Positions 24,262-31,753 of a DNA stretch of 54,857 nt are shown one piece after another; position 1 is the stretch's first letter; every line of letters starts with the position of its first letter. Under the pieces are notes generated by a model. The model did no database searches and was not told the origin of the DNA. It worked only from the letters and a program-made list of their open reading frames with translations. A program made the translations under genes and the position numbers. The stretch is taken from NCBI GenBank assembly GCA_905479115.1, contig CAJQLF010000023.1, positions 1 through 54,857 of the forward strand. The letters run 5' to 3'. This DNA comes from an uncultured Flavobacteriales bacterium (GTDB taxonomy: Bacteria > Bacteroidota > Bacteroidia > Flavobacteriales_D > Sanyastnellaceae).

Positions 24262-24357
24262 AGTTCAATCGTTAAGCTTCCAGAAAATACGCAATTTTTC
24301 TCGGAAATAGGGTGCAGAATCGTAAATAGTGCACGACCAACCTCTTATTTTTGTCGC

Positions 24358-24576
24358 ATGGAATGGAAAGTAGTCGCGCTGTCAATAGGTTTATTGGCAC
24401 TCGGTTTTGCAGGAATTGCAATCAAAATCTTGGTCAAAAAAGACGGGAAATTCGCTGGAACCTGCGCAAGTCAAAATCCATTTCTCAATGAAGAAGGAGC
24501 GGCTTGCTCCCTCTGCGGTGCAAAGCCTGAGGAACAGTGCCGAGGAGATGAAGGGAGCGGAAAAATCGTCGGTTGA
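24358..24576 (+). CDS. Small four-cysteine membrane protein, NqrM-like Nqr maturation candidate
   Basis: This 72-residue protein has one N-terminal transmembrane helix (about residues 4-25, VVALSIGLLALGFAGIAIKI) followed by a short basic stretch and four cysteines: C36 in FAGTCASQNPF, the pair C50/C53 in ACSLCG, and C61 in PEEQC. That layout parallels NqrM (DUF539), a small membrane protein with four Cys needed to insert iron into the NqrD/NqrE site in Vibrio. It converges on apbE (3 bases between stops), the last gene of the nqr operon, which strengthens the link. It lies 96 bases from the divergent secreted-protein gene. The ATG at 24358 is preferred because the open frame upstream has no coding character. 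Homology to NqrM is inferred, not proven. Confidence 0.7.
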   Translation: MEWKVVALSIGLLALGFAGIAIKILVKKDGKFAGTCASQNPFLNEEGAACSLCGAKPEEQCRGDEGSGKIVG

Positions 24577-24579
24577 CCC

Positions 24580-25725
24580 TCACTCTTGGATTTCAATAGC
24601 TGTGAGTGCTTGCCATCCTGGTGTAACCCAATTCGCCCAATTTCCCTCCCCGTCGTCGCTAATGAAATAAGCCTCTACGCGATCAAATGGATTGGCATTT
24701 CGATAATCCAAAATGAATTGCTTGCCGTCTTTTGGGCCCCACACCATGCACGCCGTTGCTAACGCATCAGCAGTCGAAGCGCTGGTCGCATGCACCGTTG
24801 CACTCAACAGACCATGTTGGACAGGATAGCCCGAGAAGGGACTGATGGTATGCGATCGTTTAATCCCGTCCATTTCATAGAATTTACGGTAATTTCCGCT
24901 GGTGCAAATGGCTGCGTCTGACACGTTCATCACCGTTTGCATTTCCCGATTATAATCTCCATCCACGGGTTCAGTAGGCCGATCTACTGCGATTCTCCAT
25001 GGCTTACCATCCATTCGATTCCCACCACATTTGACTTCTCCTCCCACTTCGACCATATAATTTTTGACTCCCCTTTCTTCCAACATGTCTGTCAATAAAT
25101 CGACGGTCATGCCCTGGGCGATTCCATTGAAGTCAAGGCATGTTCGGGGGTTGCGCTTTCGAACAGTCGTGAACTGGTAGTTGCGATCCCGCTCCACTTC
25201 ATTCAAATCAATATTCTCAAACGTCATTCCCACGTGCATCAGCGCTGAATCAACGGCCATTGGGGTCACCTCGCTCCTCTTACGCAGGCCAAAACCCCAC
25301 AACTCCACGAGCGGCTGAACGGTCGGGTCAAAAGCCCCCTCTGATGCTTCAAATAAATCAAGACTTTGAGCCCAAATCGAAGACCACAGGCCATTCTCAT
25401 CTACAAAAGTGAACAAAGAATCTCGATGTGAGAATGCATTAATCGCATTAATTCGAGAGTCTGGACGCCATAAATTAAACTCTACATCTACCGCTTCAAG
25501 CACCGAATCAATCGCCGACTGGGGCACGGCTTCAGCCTCGTGATACTTGATTAAATAAGTTGTTCCTTGGGTATCGCCGGTATGGATGATCACCTCGTTC
25601 TTTGAATTCATCGAAGTTGGTGCATCCGAATCATGACACCCTTGCAACATGAGACCCGACAGCACAAAAACGAGCAACAAAAATGCCACTCGTTTTGATT
25701 CCTTAAGAAAGAAAGAACACTCCAT
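24580..25725 (-). CDS. apbE: FAD:protein FMN transferase ApbE
   Basis: ApbE covalently attaches FMN to threonines of NqrB and NqrC, using FAD as donor, on the outer side of the cytoplasmic membrane. The 381-residue protein carries a lipoprotein signal with C30 (SGLMLQGC). Family motifs include the acidic/phosphate-binding stretch CLDFNGIAQGMTVDLL, MVEVGGEVKCGG, and HTISPFSGYPV near the C-terminus. It starts 2 bases after nqrF ends and is clearly the last gene of the nqr operon. Its stop is 3 bases from that of the convergent small NqrM-like gene. Confidence 0.95.
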   Translation of the reverse strand: MECSFFLKESKRVAFLLLVFVLSGLMLQGCHDSDAPTSMNSKNEVIIHTGDTQGTTYLIKYHEAEAVPQSAIDSVLEAVDVEFNLWRPDSRINAINAFSHRDSLFTFVDENGLWSSIWAQSLDLFEASEGAFDPTVQPLVELWGFGLRKRSEVTPMAVDSALMHVGMTFENIDLNEVERDRNYQFTTVRKRNPRTCLDFNGIAQGMTVDLLTDMLEERGVKNYMVEVGGEVKCGGNRMDGKPWRIAVDRPTEPVDGDYNREMQTVMNVSDAAICTSGNYRKFYEMDGIKRSHTISPFSGYPVQHGLLSATVHATSASTADALATACMVWGPKDGKQFILDYRNANPFDRVEAYFISDDGEGNWANWVTPGWQALTAIEIQE

Positions 25726-25727
25726 GT

Positions 25728-27023
25728 TTAACCACCAAAATCGTCAAAGGCAACATTTTCCGGCGGTACACCCCAATCGTCGCACATCTTTAAGACTGCC
25801 TGGTTCATCAATGGAGGCCCACAAAAATAGAATTCAATATCCTCCGGTGCTTCGTGATGAGCAAGCTGGTGTTCGATTACAGCGTTGTGAACAAAACCAA
25901 GGAAACCATCTCCCTCGTCCTTCATATCCTTCTTGACCTTCCAATCATCCTCTTCCGATGGCTCGGATAAAACAACGTGGAAATCGAAATTCTCAAATTC
26001 TTCCGCAATGCTGTTGAAGTCGTCCAAGTAGAACAACTCACGCTTGGAACGACCACCGTACCAAAAAGTCACTTTACGGTCCGTCTTCATCGTGTGAAAC
26101 AAGTGAAACAAATGGGAGCGCATGGGCGCCATACCAGCTCCTCCTCCGATATAGACCATCTCCGCATCCGATTCCTTGATGAAAAACTCACCATATGGCC
26201 CTGAAATGGTCACCTTATCACCTGGCTTTTGAGCAAAGACATACGAGGAACAAATTCCAGGATTCACCTGCATCCAAGCGTTTCGGGCACGATCCCATGG
26301 TGGTGTGGCAATTCGAATGTTCAACATGACGATGTTGCCCTCCGCAGGGTGATTCGCCATAGAATAGGCACGAACGATAGGCTCGTCATTCGTCATTTTT
26401 AAGTCCCAAAGACCAAACTTGTCCCATTCGCTTTGGAACGTTTTGGGATCCTTGTGGTGCTCCGGGTGCGCCGCAATGTCAATGTCACTAAAATTCACGA
26501 CAACCTCTGGGACATCAACTTGGATATACCCTCCGGCCTCAAAGTCCAATGTCTCGCCCTCTGGAAGGCGAACAACAAACTCCTTGATGAACGAGGCAAC
26601 GTTATAATTCGACACGACCTCACAGTCCATCTTTTTGATGCCAAACACTTCCTCTGGAACCTGAATCTCCATGTCCTCCTTGACTTTGACTTGGCAACCC
26701 AAGCGCCAATTATCGTTTACCTCCTTGCGGGAAAAATGAGGTTCCTCCGTAGGAAGGATTGACCCGCCCCCGACGGGAACCTGGCATCTGCATTGTACAC
26801 ACGTTCCTCCACCTCCGCAGGCAGATGGTAAAAAGACACCGTTGTTACCCAGTGTCGTGAGTAGCGTACTTCCTCCGTCAACTTCAATGGTTTGCTCACC
26901 GTTGATCACAATCTTCAGTTTACCACTGGGAGACAACTTGGCCTTCGCAAAAAGTAACAACCCGACGAGCACCAAAATGACCGCAAGGAAAAAAACGATG
27001 GTTAAAAGAATGGTCGTTGTCAT
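25728..27023 (-). CDS. nqrF: Na+-translocating NADH:quinone reductase subunit F
   Basis: NqrF is the NADH-oxidising input module of Na+-NQR. The 431 residues contain an N-terminal transmembrane anchor (LLTIVFFLAVILVLVGLLLF), a plant-type 2Fe-2S ferredoxin domain with the cysteine cluster ACGGGGTCVQC plus a distant C in LGCQV, and an FAD/NAD reductase domain (RAYSMANHPAE for FAD; GGGAGMAPMRSHLFHLF for NAD; FCGPPLMN near the end). I chose ATG 27023, where the protein begins MTTTILL; a TTG at 27032 is three codons upstream. It follows nqrE by 5 bases. Confidence 0.96.
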   Translation of the reverse strand: MTTTILLTIVFFLAVILVLVGLLLFAKAKLSPSGKLKIVINGEQTIEVDGGSTLLTTLGNNGVFLPSACGGGGTCVQCRCQVPVGGGSILPTEEPHFSRKEVNDNWRLGCQVKVKEDMEIQVPEEVFGIKKMDCEVVSNYNVASFIKEFVVRLPEGETLDFEAGGYIQVDVPEVVVNFSDIDIAAHPEHHKDPKTFQSEWDKFGLWDLKMTNDEPIVRAYSMANHPAEGNIVMLNIRIATPPWDRARNAWMQVNPGICSSYVFAQKPGDKVTISGPYGEFFIKESDAEMVYIGGGAGMAPMRSHLFHLFHTMKTDRKVTFWYGGRSKRELFYLDDFNSIAEEFENFDFHVVLSEPSEEDDWKVKKDMKDEGDGFLGFVHNAVIEHQLAHHEAPEDIEFYFCGPPLMNQAVLKMCDDWGVPPENVAFDDFGG

Positions 27024-27028
27024 CTCTA

Positions 27029-27643
27029 TCAAATTTCAATGCCCATAAAACTCATAAAGGCAATCCCCATGAGACCGGTTATGATGAATGTGATACCCAG
27101 CCCTTTCAAAGGTGCAGGCACATTGGAGTAACGGATTTTTTCTCGGATCGCCGCGATTGCAACAATTGCCAACCACCAACCTACGCCAGATCCCAAACCA
27201 AAAACAGTTGCTTCGCCAATGCTCGGATACTGGCGATCTTGCATAAACAAGGCGCCTCCTAAAATCGAACAGTTCACCGCTATCAGCGGCAAAAAGATAC
27301 CCAAGGCTCCATACAGTGCCGGGGCAAATTTCTCGACAATCATCTCCACGAGCTGCACCATGGAAGCGATAACCGCAATGAACATGATGAAGCTGAGAAA
27401 GCTCAAATTAATGGACGCATACGCTGGATCTATCCATTGCAATGCACCTTCTTTCAGCACGTAATTCTCGAGCAAATAATTAATGGGCACCGTAATCCCC
27501 AAGACAAAAATCACAGCCAGACCTAAGCCGTTGGCGGTCTTCACCGTTTTGGACACCGCGAGGTAAGAACACATGCCCAAGAAATAGGCAAAAATCATGT
27601 TCTCAACGAAGATGCCTTTGACAAATATGCTGAGGTATTCCAT
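27029..27643 (-). CDS. nqrE: Na+-translocating NADH:quinone reductase subunit E
   Basis: NqrE is one of the two related membrane subunits that form the inverted-topology pair holding the intramembrane iron centre. The 204 residues contain about six hydrophobic helices. The conserved iron-ligand cysteines are present: C25 in [13 protein letters not shown] and the second in [14 protein letters not shown]. The ATG overlaps the nqrD stop by one base (TAATG), an arrangement typical for coupled translation of subunits made in equal amounts. Confidence 0.96.
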
Positions 27644-28335
27644 TAGTTCTCTTCAAATAAGGCCTGATTGCGGCTGCGTTGAATCCAAATGATGATGCCC
27701 ACGGTGATCAGCGCCATCGGAGGCAGGATCATCAAATTATTGTTCTCATAAAATCCACCTTCACTCATGAACCAACTGGAGGGGAGAAACTTGATTTGTC
27801 CCATTCCAGGCAAGGAAATCGCTCCGCTACCAAAAACCTCCCGAACCACCGATACGGCCAACAAAATCCATGCATACCCCATGGCATTGCCAATGGCATC
27901 TAAGAACGACGGGCCGGGTTTGTTCGCCAATGCAAACGCTTCCAAACGTCCCATGATGATGCAGTTCGTAATGATGAGACCAACAAACACAGAAAGCTTC
28001 TCGGAGATGTCTGGTTGGAAGGCCTTCAGCACTTGGTCAACGATGATGACCAATGAGGCCACAATGACGAGCTGAACAATAATTCTAATGCGATCGGGAA
28101 TCATGTTGCGCAACAGAGAAACAATGACGTTTCCACCAATCATGACAAACAAAACAGACAAACTCATGATGACCGCCTGCTGCAGTTGGACCGTAATGGC
28201 CAAGGCCGAGCATATTCCCAAAACCTGAACGGTGATGGGATTTGAATCGTCCAAGGGATCAGAAAGTAATCTCCGGTTTTTCTTTGAAAACAACGACTCC
28301 TTTTTGGCCGTTGCGGCTGCCGTTTCTGTGCTCAT
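27643..28335 (-). CDS. nqrD: Na+-translocating NADH:quinone reductase subunit D
   Basis: NqrD pairs with NqrE in the membrane core of Na+-NQR. The protein has 230 residues and about six membrane segments. Iron-site cysteines are C42 in [11 protein letters not shown] and C125 in [10 protein letters not shown]. It has a ~30-residue hydrophilic N-terminal extension ([17 protein letters not shown]) before the first conserved segment, slightly longer than proteobacterial NqrD. It overlaps nqrC by 4 bases and nqrE by 1 base. Confidence 0.96.
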
Positions 28336-29132
28336 CGCTGCGCTCGGGTTTCAGATTGAAAATAACGGAGGTACACTTTTAACGTGCGGTTCATCATTTC
28401 ATCCACCCCTTTCGAAGTGATGGTCCCTCCCGTGATTCCGTCCACACTGTATTCGTCAGTTGCAGCTCCGCCTTTCAGTACACTGAAAAGTGCTGCGCCT
28501 TCCACATCGAGCTTCTTTCCCTTGAATTTCTCAGTGAAAAAAGACTCCCTAATTTCAGCACCGAGTCCTGGAGTCTCCGTCTTGTGATCAAATTTCGCTC
28601 CGAAGATTGTGGTCATGTCATCTTCTAATGCTATGTACCCCCAAATCGGTCCCCACAACCCCGATCCAACTATCGGAATAACGAACAAATTTTGGTCATC
28701 GTCTGTGACGCACTGAAACAGCGGAAAGGTCAGCCCTTCGTCCGCCAATGCCGCCATCAATGCCGCATCATCTCCGTCTGCAGCCTTTGCCGCTGACTTG
28801 ACAGACGAGCGATAGTCCTTTTTCACATCGATGCTGAAAGGGTCTGTCTTGTCCTTGGGATTGACTGGCGATTTTGTAGAGGACACCTGCTTCCCTTCCA
28901 AGTCAATTGCAATGCGTTCTACCACGTATTCTGCAAATATGTCGCTTGCATTGGATCGATCGGCATCCACTCCAATGGCTCCGAGGATGTCAATCATTTT
29001 CTTGTCCGCGGCATTCGCGTCTTGGCGATCTTTCAACGACAAGGCCGTAAAGGCCAAAGCCGTTCCTACCACCACCACCATTGCGATGGAAAATAGAAAA
29101 GTATAACCGGTGCTGTTCTTGTCTATAGCCAT
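28332..29132 (-). CDS. nqrC: Na+-translocating NADH:quinone reductase subunit C
   Basis: NqrC carries a covalently bound FMN facing the periplasm. The 266 residues show one N-terminal transmembrane helix (FLFSIAMVVVVGTALAFTAL) and the flavinylation motif at residues 231-237, DGITGGT, in which T237 would be the FMN-bearing residue; the usual alanine before it is glycine here. The motif continues TITSKGVDEMM. ApbE, encoded in the same operon, is the expected FMN transferase. The gene starts 10 bases after nqrB. Confidence 0.95.
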   Translation of the reverse strand: MAIDKNSTGYTFLFSIAMVVVVGTALAFTALSLKDRQDANAADKKMIDILGAIGVDADRSNASDIFAEYVVERIAIDLEGKQVSSTKSPVNPKDKTDPFSIDVKKDYRSSVKSAAKAADGDDAALMAALADEGLTFPLFQCVTDDDQNLFVIPIVGSGLWGPIWGYIALEDDMTTIFGAKFDHKTETPGLGAEIRESFFTEKFKGKKLDVEGAALFSVLKGGAATDEYSVDGITGGTITSKGVDEMMNRTLKVYLRYFQSETRAQR

Positions 29133-29142
29133 GGTGATTCTA

Positions 29143-30393
29143 TTAAGCTGTTGCGCCTTGTGATGAGAGCATGCGCTTTTCGCGCTTGCCCGTATTTGCC
29201 TGGATCACATAGTGATCAATCAGGGGTGCCATGACATTCATAAACAAAATTGCCATCATGACCCCTTCCGGGTAAGCTGGATTGAAGACCCGAATCATGA
29301 TGCTGAGAAATCCTCCAAAAAACCCGTAAATCCATTTACCTCTCTCCGTTTGGGATGCACTGACCGGATCCGTGGCCATGAAGACCATGCCGAACATGAA
29401 CCCACCCATGACAACTTGATGAACCGGTGGAAGCGTCATGTACGCATTCAACCCCATCAGATTGAAAAGCAATCCCATAACCAAGCCACCCGCTAGGAAA
29501 GACGACATGATCTTCCAGCTTCCAATACCCGTCCAAATCAACAAAGCCGCTCCTAGGAGAATCGCTAATGCGCTCGTCTCTCCAACAGAACCGGGGATTA
29601 AGCCCAAGAAAGAATTTGTCAAACTGAACATGCCATCCGCGCCAAACATATCCATGACACCCGCAGCAGCTGCATCATTCGGAGCTTTACCAACTGTCGA
29701 TGCCAGGTGACCCAATGCCGTTGCTCCTGTATACCCGTCTGCGAGTACGCCCGCCTCAGCGGAGGCCTTCACTTGGTGAATCCAAATCTCACCAGATAAT
29801 TGTTTGGGGTAAGCAAAAAACAGAAATGCACGCGCGGTGAGGGCGACGTTCAAAATATTCATTCCCGTTCCACCGAACACCTCTTTGGCGATGATCACTG
29901 CAAAAGCTACGGCCAGAGCAACCATCCAGAGCGGCACATCAACCGGCATAATCAACGGTATCAGCATGCCCGAAACCAAATAGCCTTCATTGATGCTGTG
30001 ACCTCGCATCCCTGCAAAAAGAAACTCAATGCCCAAACCAACTCCATAACTCACCACCACCAAAGGCAAAACTTTCACAGCACCGATGAACATCTTGTCC
30101 ATAAATGCCATCATCAGCGGATCTGCGACTGTGATTTCTCCAATGGACAACAGATACTGGTGCCCCTGGTTCCATGTTCCGAACAAAAGTGCAGGCACGA
30201 GTGCCAAAATCACCATGAACATGGTGCGCTTCAGGTCCACACCATCCCGGATGTGAACTCCGTTTTTCGTTGCATGACCCGGGGTGAATGCGAACGTTTC
30301 AAGCGAATCAAAGACCACCCAAAACTTGCTCAACTTTCCACCTTCTTCAAAATGTGGACGGACAGCGTCCAATAACTTGTGTGCAGCTTTCAT
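29143..30393 (-). CDS. nqrB: Na+-translocating NADH:quinone reductase subunit B
   Basis: NqrB is the largest membrane subunit of Na+-NQR; it holds a covalent FMN and riboflavin and forms the sodium pathway. The 416 residues carry about ten hydrophobic segments. The flavinylation motif DGYTGAT at 219-225 makes T225 the FMN site. Other family signatures are GHSINEGYLVSGMLIPLIMP, FGGTGMNILNVALTARAFLF and FMATDPVSASQTERGKW. It starts 1 base after nqrA ends. Confidence 0.96.
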   Translation of the reverse strand: MKAAHKLLDAVRPHFEEGGKLSKFWVVFDSLETFAFTPGHATKNGVHIRDGVDLKRTMFMVILALVPALLFGTWNQGHQYLLSIGEITVADPLMMAFMDKMFIGAVKVLPLVVVSYGVGLGIEFLFAGMRGHSINEGYLVSGMLIPLIMPVDVPLWMVALAVAFAVIIAKEVFGGTGMNILNVALTARAFLFFAYPKQLSGEIWIHQVKASAEAGVLADGYTGATALGHLASTVGKAPNDAAAAGVMDMFGADGMFSLTNSFLGLIPGSVGETSALAILLGAALLIWTGIGSWKIMSSFLAGGLVMGLLFNLMGLNAYMTLPPVHQVVMGGFMFGMVFMATDPVSASQTERGKWIYGFFGGFLSIMIRVFNPAYPEGVMMAILFMNVMAPLIDHYVIQANTGKREKRMLSSQGATA

Positions 30394-30394
30394 G

Positions 30395-31753
30395 TTATCC
30401 CAGTTCTTTCATTAAGCGATCAAGGCCTTCGCGAACGATGGATTGAACGGCAATTTTGGAGGTGCAAGCGTACTCACAAAGAGCGAAATCTTCCGGTGCC
30501 ACTTCATAAATACCGAGCTTTTCCATGGCATCAATGTCATTGGCCAGGATGCTCTTGAGCAACTGCACCGGATAAATATCAAACGGAAAAACAGGCTCAT
30601 ATTGACCCGTGACCACAAAGGCTCTTTCTTCACCGTTGTTGCATGTATCCATGGCAAACTCCTTCGTCTTTGGCAACAACCAAGTCGGGTAACTTTTGGA
30701 TAAGCTGAACTTATCTAGGCCCAGGCCCAACCAGCCATCTGCCAAAAGAAACTTCGGTTTATTGCCTTCGGGCAAGAGGCATATTTGATGGTGAAGCCCC
30801 CCGAGATGTCCGCTGGCTTCTGTTCGAGCTCCCGTCAATGGATTGCCCGAAATAATGCGCACGGATTCTTCATCGATTGGATCGCCCGTCAAACTCTGCA
30901 CTTCACAGCCCAAGGTCGTCGTCATGTGCTTCGGTGACGCATGCTCCGACCCCGCAACGGAAATTGTTCGTTTTGCACAGTATGTGCCTGTTTGCAGGGT
31001 TTCTCCCAGATTCGCAACATCTTCAGCGTGCATGGTCCAAACCGTTTCTCCCTTGTTAATGGGAGTGGTATGATGAATTTGCACACCGACATTGCCTGAA
31101 GGGTGCGGACCATCAAAAATGGTGGTCTCTACTCCTTCGATTCCATCAAAGGTTGATTGCCCCGGTTGGATACCGACTTGGATTGCGTCGTTGCCAACGA
31201 GGCATTGAAGCGCTTTTATTCCAAATTGAAAGGCCTCTTCTCTGCCCGCCAGAACCAATTCCATATCTGGAGCGAGCGGCGCACTGTCAAATCCACTCAC
31301 GTGAATGCTCCGAGGATGAATCTCAGGATTGGCTACCGTTGCAAATGGGCGCTGTTCCACAAAAGGAAAAAACCCGCGCTCCGCCATTGCTTCTTTCATG
31401 CGCTGAGCATCACAGGTCGCCAGATTGATCTTCTCAAACGTTCTCGACTCTCCCTTCCCGTCGGCGTCGATGACAACGGACAGAATCCGCCGTTTCTCAC
31501 CGCGCAGGACACGGCTTACCGTTCCACTTACGGGGCTCAGAAATTTTACTGAGGGGTGCTCCTTGCTGTGAAATAGAATGGAACCCGCCTGAACGGCAGC
31601 CCCTTCTTTCACTTCAAGTTTAGGAACAATTCCCAGGTAATTGGGAGGTTGCACAGCATATGTTGCTGTTGCTGAGCCAGCTTCCACTTGGCGGGAAGGA
31701 CGACCTTTCAGTCGTATATCGGCTCCTTTTTTAATCCGTATCGTGCGGGACAT
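30395..31753 (-). CDS. nqrA: Na+-translocating NADH:quinone reductase subunit A
   Basis: NqrA is the cytoplasmic subunit of Na+-NQR and has been linked to quinone binding. With the ATG at 31753 the protein has 453 residues and begins MSRTIRIKKGADIRLKG, as family members do. An open frame runs up to 31888 but a perfect TAnnTTTG promoter element lies inside it, which argues for the shorter start. Family motifs include SPVSGTVSRVLRGEKRRILSV, HVSGFDSAPLAPDM, GNPLTG and the C-terminal segment FALCEYACTSKIAVQSIVREG. It is the first gene of the operon nqrABCDEF-apbE and is transcribed divergently from the T9SS plug gene. Confidence 0.96.
   Translation of the reverse strand: MSRTIRIKKGADIRLKGRPSRQVEAGSATATYAVQPPNYLGIVPKLEVKEGAAVQAGSILFHSKEHPSVKFLSPVSGTVSRVLRGEKRRILSVVIDADGKGESRTFEKINLATCDAQRMKEAMAERGFFPFVEQRPFATVANPEIHPRSIHVSGFDSAPLAPDMELVLAGREEAFQFGIKALQCLVGNDAIQVGIQPGQSTFDGIEGVETTIFDGPHPSGNVGVQIHHTTPINKGETVWTMHAEDVANLGETLQTGTYCAKRTISVAGSEHASPKHMTTTLGCEVQSLTGDPIDEESVRIISGNPLTGARTEASGHLGGLHHQICLLPEGNKPKFLLADGWLGLGLDKFSLSKSYPTWLLPKTKEFAMDTCNNGEERAFVVTGQYEPVFPFDIYPVQLLKSILANDIDAMEKLGIYEVAPEDFALCEYACTSKIAVQSIVREGLDRLMKELG

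Follow-up and report, generated by a model that had tools for sequence, protein, structure and literature searches.

The window, by which we mean the whole stretch of 54,857 nucleotides analysed here, carries a complete nqrABCDEF-apbE cluster and, on the opposite strand from it, a small gene for a 72-residue protein (Table 1) in which the preliminary description had recognised one N-terminal membrane helix and four cysteines. Both features hold up: hydropathy peaks at 2.29 over residues 8-26 (19-residue window), the Cys residues occupy positions 36, 50, 53 and 61, and a helix spanning residues 3-36 is seen in a single-sequence structure model of the protein alone, whose low confidence (mean pLDDT 60.7) restricts its use to the helix. 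Of 120 genomes sampled from the order, 76 have homologues at E < 1e-7, and the motif C-x(12-14)-C-x(1,2)-C-G-x(2-9)-C is kept in 89/89 extracted four-Cys homologues, a set collected by similarity and hence biased towards look-alike members; together, this marks it as a real gene. Over the roughly 60 residues that can be aligned in the family, only C36, C50, C53, G54 and C61 are invariant across 25 diverse members, and GTC is replaced by KSC in five proteins from the order (L037-L041). In NqrM proteins, too, a single N-terminal helix precedes four conserved Cys residues, the first of which sits in a G-S/T-C motif.

As the preliminary description had it, the gene converges on apbE, the two lying tail to tail with 3 bp between their ends. 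Its placement at the end of the nqr operon stands in part: the gene does adjoin apbE where the operon ends, but it is convergent, lies outside the operon and has a predicted promoter of its own. Two Cys residues each in NqrD and NqrE, pairs that are likely the four ligands of the iron-sulfur cluster, together with ApbE-type motifs in NqrB and NqrC, indicate that the client sites for maturation appear to be present. Among 168 carriers pooled without repeats (4 of them counted for a His/Cys form described below), gene and nqrA lie no more than 12 kb apart in 56. In 19 others they share a contig but are separated by 18 kb to 2 Mb, and in the remaining 93 they are on different contigs, in some cases perhaps through contig breaks. 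Where the two are linked, it is convergent with nqr in 50 of the 56 carriers and co-directional in 6.

Upstream of the gene lies a predicted sigma-A box that conforms to TAnnTTTG. Of 88 homologues, 61 have this consensus in the 45 nt preceding the ATG and 27 lack it, while letter-shuffled controls gave a mean of 2.8 and a maximum of 10 in 1000, and any ATG from the same loci had the box in 435 of 17805 cases. The spacing between box and ATG is exactly 4 nt in 20 of the 88 homologues, the one in the window included. For Flavobacterium psychrophilum, passages of one study place the TAnnTTTG box at -12 to -5 and put leaderless mRNAs at 5.5 % of those examined (PMC9723704). Such a box also accords with the presumed Bacteroidota affiliation of the genomes analysed. 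With the box in the window 4 nt from the ATG, the placement in F. psychrophilum predicts the A of this ATG as the first transcribed base, and so by prediction the gene forms its own transcription unit with a leaderless mRNA, separate from the nqr operon.

Table 1. Features of the window and small genes at other loci; positions refer to the sequence named in the second column.
Feature	Sequence	Position	Strand	Remarks
Predicted sigma-A -7 box	window	24346..24353	+	TATTTTTG (consensus TAnnTTTG); 4 nt before ATG
Very likely divergent NqrM, 72 aa	window	24358..24576	+	ATG 24358, stop TGA 24574-24576; MEWKVV...GKIVG
Membrane helix, residues ~5-26, then Lys-rich KILVKKDGK	window	24370..24435	+	from hydropathy; limits approximate
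Four-Cys tail	window	24463..24540	+	C36 (GTCAS), C50 and C53 (CSLCG), C61 (EQC); invariant in 25 aligned homologues
apbE, flavin transferase, convergent neighbour	window	24580..25725	-	PF02424, E 4.7e-70
nqrF	window	25728..27032	-	TIGR01941, 580.5 bits (cut-off 295)
nqrE	window	27029..27643	-	TIGR01940, 314.7 bits (cut-off 247.55); two Cys (25, 125)
nqrD	window	27643..28335	-	TIGR01939, 268.5 bits (cut-off 244.85); two Cys (42, 125)
nqrC	window	28332..29132	-	TIGR01938, 171 bits (cut-off 144); ApbE-type motif DGITGGT
nqrB	window	29143..30393	-	TIGR01937, 477 bits (cut-off 349.9); ApbE-type motif DGYTGAT
nqrA (matched stretch)	window	30404..31741	-	TIGR01936, 439.4 bits (cut-off 321.05)
His/Cys member	L083	5595-5810	-	
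His/Cys member	L084	5426-5641	-	
His/Cys member	L085	5182-5412	+	
His/Cys member	L225	1501-1710	+	
CCGGGxC member	L087	12804-13055	+	
CCGGGxC member	L088	5537-5740	-	
CCGGGxC member	L089	9712-9918	+	
CCGGGxC member	L100	10672-10890	+	
CCGGGxC members	L265-L272			

No Pfam or NCBIfam model names the window protein or the relatives scanned. At E <= 10, the window protein draws below-cut-off matches to unrelated Pfam models only and nothing from NCBIfam; since NCBIfam is silent on canonical NqrM, too, only the Pfam miss is informative. Family proteins are, we presume, often labelled 'membrane or secreted protein' in databases. The Pfam model for NqrM (DUF539, PF04400), which gives 80.4 and 35.9 bits with positive-control proteins, returned no match at E <= 10 for any of 16 sequences scanned, namely the window protein and 15 four-Cys relatives. 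A separate canonical NqrM in the same genome, which according to the preliminary description would speak against its assignment, was not seen: the genome from which the window derives gave zero PF04400 matches at E <= 10, and six-frame searches found none over the cut-off in 120 genomes of the order or 395 of the phylum. The same search, applied elsewhere, detected NqrM in 2/2 genomes where it is known and in 17 of 110 from another phylum, and Bacteroides ihuae, the one Bacteroidota named among the control genomes, has nqrA over the cut-off and at most a below-cut-off match to PF04400. Such weaker matches, which we take to be chance, were seen in 6 of the 120 order genomes (E <= 0.1, best 18.0 bits) and in 2 of the 395 phylum genomes (E <= 0.01), the best of these (21.1 bits) coming from G400, which is not among the nqrA-positive genomes. 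An apparent counter-example, a locus titled Chryseobacterium that encodes a canonical NqrM (L184), is 95 % identical over 4458 bases to a Citrobacter locus (L185) and probably stems from a mislabelled assembly. Searches of solved structures yielded no match under E 0.03 with the family or 0.3 with NqrM, and those of a plasmid collection chance matches only (E 3 and 6).

Profile-profile comparison with DUF539/NqrM, the check that the preliminary description had proposed, came out in favour of a relationship. Using hhalign, a 25-row alignment of the family matched 18 canonical NqrM sequences with a probability of 97.7 % and a score of 64.2 over 62 columns, with all four Cys in register and with a helix motif (GIAIK / GMAIG) and G[ST]C aligning together; exchanging the sides gave 97.5 % and a narrower 22-row alignment 97.0 %. 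None of 750 column-permuted controls (five schemes of 150 each that permute helix columns, tail columns or both, two of them holding the Cys columns) reached 64.2, the best being 59.2 with Cys columns held. Mean scores dropped to 37.0 with the helix permuted and to 41.9 with the tail permuted, which tells that much of the real score comes from one half alone. The hhalign probability and the permutation controls thus support common ancestry with NqrM, although Pfam itself makes no such assignment, and with PF04400 failing to match any of the four-Cys members scanned, the evidence for homology comes from profiles of short sequences. One may ask whether the likeness could instead be convergent, an unrelated membrane-anchored Cys protein having been recruited to the same job. 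Such an origin would suit a tail that is short and Cys-dominated as well as the lack of PF04400 matches among scanned sequences and, over the cut-off, among genomes. Yet in each of the five schemes 0/150 permuted controls equalled the real score and the helix motif aligns jointly with G[ST]C, so to our minds convergence is highly improbable.

Like NqrM, the family combines one N-terminal helix and a basic flank with G-[ST]-C and then C-x(1,2)-C...C, is tied to nqr and, in the window, adjoins apbE. It differs in having CAS-NP where NqrM has CGG after the first Cys, in the distance from first to second Cys (13 residues in the window protein), in escaping PF04400 and in a gene that is predicted to be a convergent unit of its own and that lies close to nqrA in no more than the above 56 carriers. 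The layout G[ST]CG...C-x2-CG...C does occur in 8 of 17 canonical NqrM from another phylum, unlike in enterobacterial NqrM, which read C-x-C-x3-C. CcoS/FixS proteins are also small with a single helix, and relatives of the window protein gave weak matches to a FixS profile (E 0.014, 0.0093 and 0.27); all of these, however, stay below the PF03597 cut-off of 23.1 bits, with 16.1 bits as the highest score of any relative and no match for the window protein itself, and the CcoS-like proteins of L095 and L097, named from sequence, have no Cys. ApbE, encoded by the adjacent gene, also matures this enzyme, as the flavin transferase that acts on NqrB and NqrC, but is itself an unrelated protein (PF02424).

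NqrM is said, in the abstract of Kostyrko et al., to be found only in bacteria with Na+-NQR. In our order sample (n=120; nqrA at E <= 1e-10 in 84 genomes, 78 of them over the family cut-off; protein matches weaker than E 1e-7 excluded), protein and nqrA coincide in 76 genomes, nqrA is alone in 8, the protein alone in 0 and 36 have neither. The phylum sample (n=395; four-Cys form at E < 1e-10 and nqrA over the cut-off, leaving out weaker profile matches and not counting as nqrA-positive 10 genomes with only below-cut-off nqrA matches) has the four-Cys form in 50 of 67 nqrA-positive genomes and in 0 of 328 others, and the class sample (n=130), searched with a profile that includes the His/Cys sister branch, has the protein in 48/48 genomes with and 0/82 without nqrA. 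These samples overlap in a few genomes, and shared ancestry means that the counts are not independent events, and Fisher values computed from them should not be read as probabilities of such events. In the order and phylum samples, where no genome has a DUF539 match over the cut-off, most genomes with nqrA carry this protein, a check that the preliminary description had proposed, and the nqr-free carriers that it had expected to count against an NqrM role were not seen in any of the three samples. Among the listed genomes of genus g25, G082 has both protein and nqr, and G008, G038, G043, G048 and G055 have neither. The 8 misses among the 84 order genomes compare with 5.7 expected from incompleteness; in G053, from the same family as the window genome, 99 % complete and equipped with apbE and an entire nqr operon (L042), no four-Cys homologue was found, nor any candidate in the ~3 kb downstream of apbE. 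Five nqrA-free genomes with weak family-profile matches were set aside: G165 and G471, whose proteins are CcoS-like and contain no Cys; G306, where the frame is short; and two dismissed on length alone, G511, with a match over 29 residues in a frame of 213 aa, and G215, with one over 22 residues in a frame of 178 aa that we take as chance. It might be argued that the protein handles iron or metals in general and travels with nqr by chance, given that other small membrane proteins have Cys-rich tails and that Pfam zinc-ribbon and FeoB-associated models match, albeit below cut-off. But with no nqrA-free carrier among 36, 328 and 82 genomes and with presence varying in step with nqr inside g25, we find this hardly credible.

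The phylum also holds candidates for further forms. One is a sister branch (FPN[TG]H...G[IV].C), encoded in four genomes of the phylum sample that have nqrA but lack the four-Cys form. The first Cys is replaced by His here, and of the remaining Cys positions the second alone is retained, occupied in one member by two adjacent Cys. Of 80 genomes searched with a profile of this branch (29 nqrA-positive, 51 nqrA-negative), these 4 alone gave a strong match; the ten matches that follow in rank are four-Cys genes, and two of the 12 four-Cys carriers included (G156, G359) were missed. By hhalign, His/Cys proteins resemble the four-Cys family (97.4 %, score 59.8, null maximum 20.3) but reach only 61.4 % when compared directly with NqrM (score 27.5, null maximum 21.9). 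A protein from G413 (L098 5310-5528, minus strand) appears intermediate between the four-Cys and His/Cys types (GTCAGSNIKMKEKGITCGCGPEGC). Another small protein, a helix followed by CCGGGxC, is present in 12/12 nqrA-positive genomes of another family from a different class; its gene directly follows apbE or, in L267, where apbE was not detected, sits at the corresponding place. Two of these proteins (L089, L267) have no Pfam match at E <= 1. They align with NqrM at 95.4 % (38 columns, score 44.6, null maximum 28.7) but with the four-Cys family only at 68.3 % (score 28.5, null maximum 26.4); since the first four were chosen as the best NqrM-profile scores among 1412 frames, the comparison with NqrM is not independent, while their place after apbE is. 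These two candidate forms cover 16 of the 17 remaining nqrA-positive phylum genomes, so that 66/67 have a candidate; in G385 (3 % contamination) there is none near nqr. We see an even chance that NqrM comes in at least three forms in this phylum with different ligand sets, namely four Cys, His/Cys, and CCGGGxC usually plus one Cys. The first Cys of NqrM is reportedly essential in Vibrio harveyi. With His at this position in the whole sister branch, the iron chemistry of NQR maturation would not be fixed, nor would a four-Cys site be universally required.

What might the window protein do? Its homology to NqrM, its co-occurrence with nqrA and the failure of PF04400, which detects NqrM elsewhere, to find any in these genomes together support a divergent NqrM branch that is missed by Pfam, and we are confident that the protein belongs to a Bacteroidota branch of this Na+-NQR maturation factor. 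According to passages of one paper, NqrM is a maturation protein, and the intramembrane [2Fe-2S] cluster 'seems to require' it for insertion (PMC12174285). By analogy, the window protein may deliver iron. Made, as predicted, from its own unit as a leaderless mRNA and not with the nqr operon, the protein would be anchored in the inner membrane by its helix, and by the positive-inside rule both the Lys-rich stretch and the Cys tail would face the cytoplasm; the tail may bind iron or a nascent cluster and could hand it to the four NqrD/NqrE Cys residues that hold the intramembrane cluster, while ApbE would attach flavins meanwhile. A scenario in which the protein, NqrM-derived or not, stays in Na+-NQR as a small accessory subunit or assembly scaffold and delivers no iron would fit strict nqrA co-occurrence equally well, and the His/Cys branch, which retains one of four Cys positions, shows that a four-Cys metal site is not kept group-wide. 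Nonetheless we deem such a subunit unlikely, as the relative it resembles is, in the passages cited, a maturation protein (PMC12174285), as 19 of the 168 carriers surely have its gene far from nqr and 93 have it on a separate contig, and as a plain scaffold would not need the motif kept by all 89 four-Cys members.

Na+-NQR has been argued to originate in the Chlorobi/Bacteroidetes group (passages of PMC4014512), yet 0/395 phylum genomes have a Pfam NqrM over the cut-off. In the titles, abstract beginnings and passages of the NqrM/DUF539 papers covered by our search we found no Bacteroidota NqrM treated, although an earlier mention in the founding paper is possible, and in a paper on Prevotella NQR (PMC6560451) the words ApbE and maturation are absent. 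The assignment of the window protein to NqrM gives annotators a marker for a small gene without a Pfam name, and it names the gene to co-express for active Bacteroidota NQR in another host. Moreover, the natural variants, with Cys changed to His or with CCGGGxC, could show which residues handle iron.
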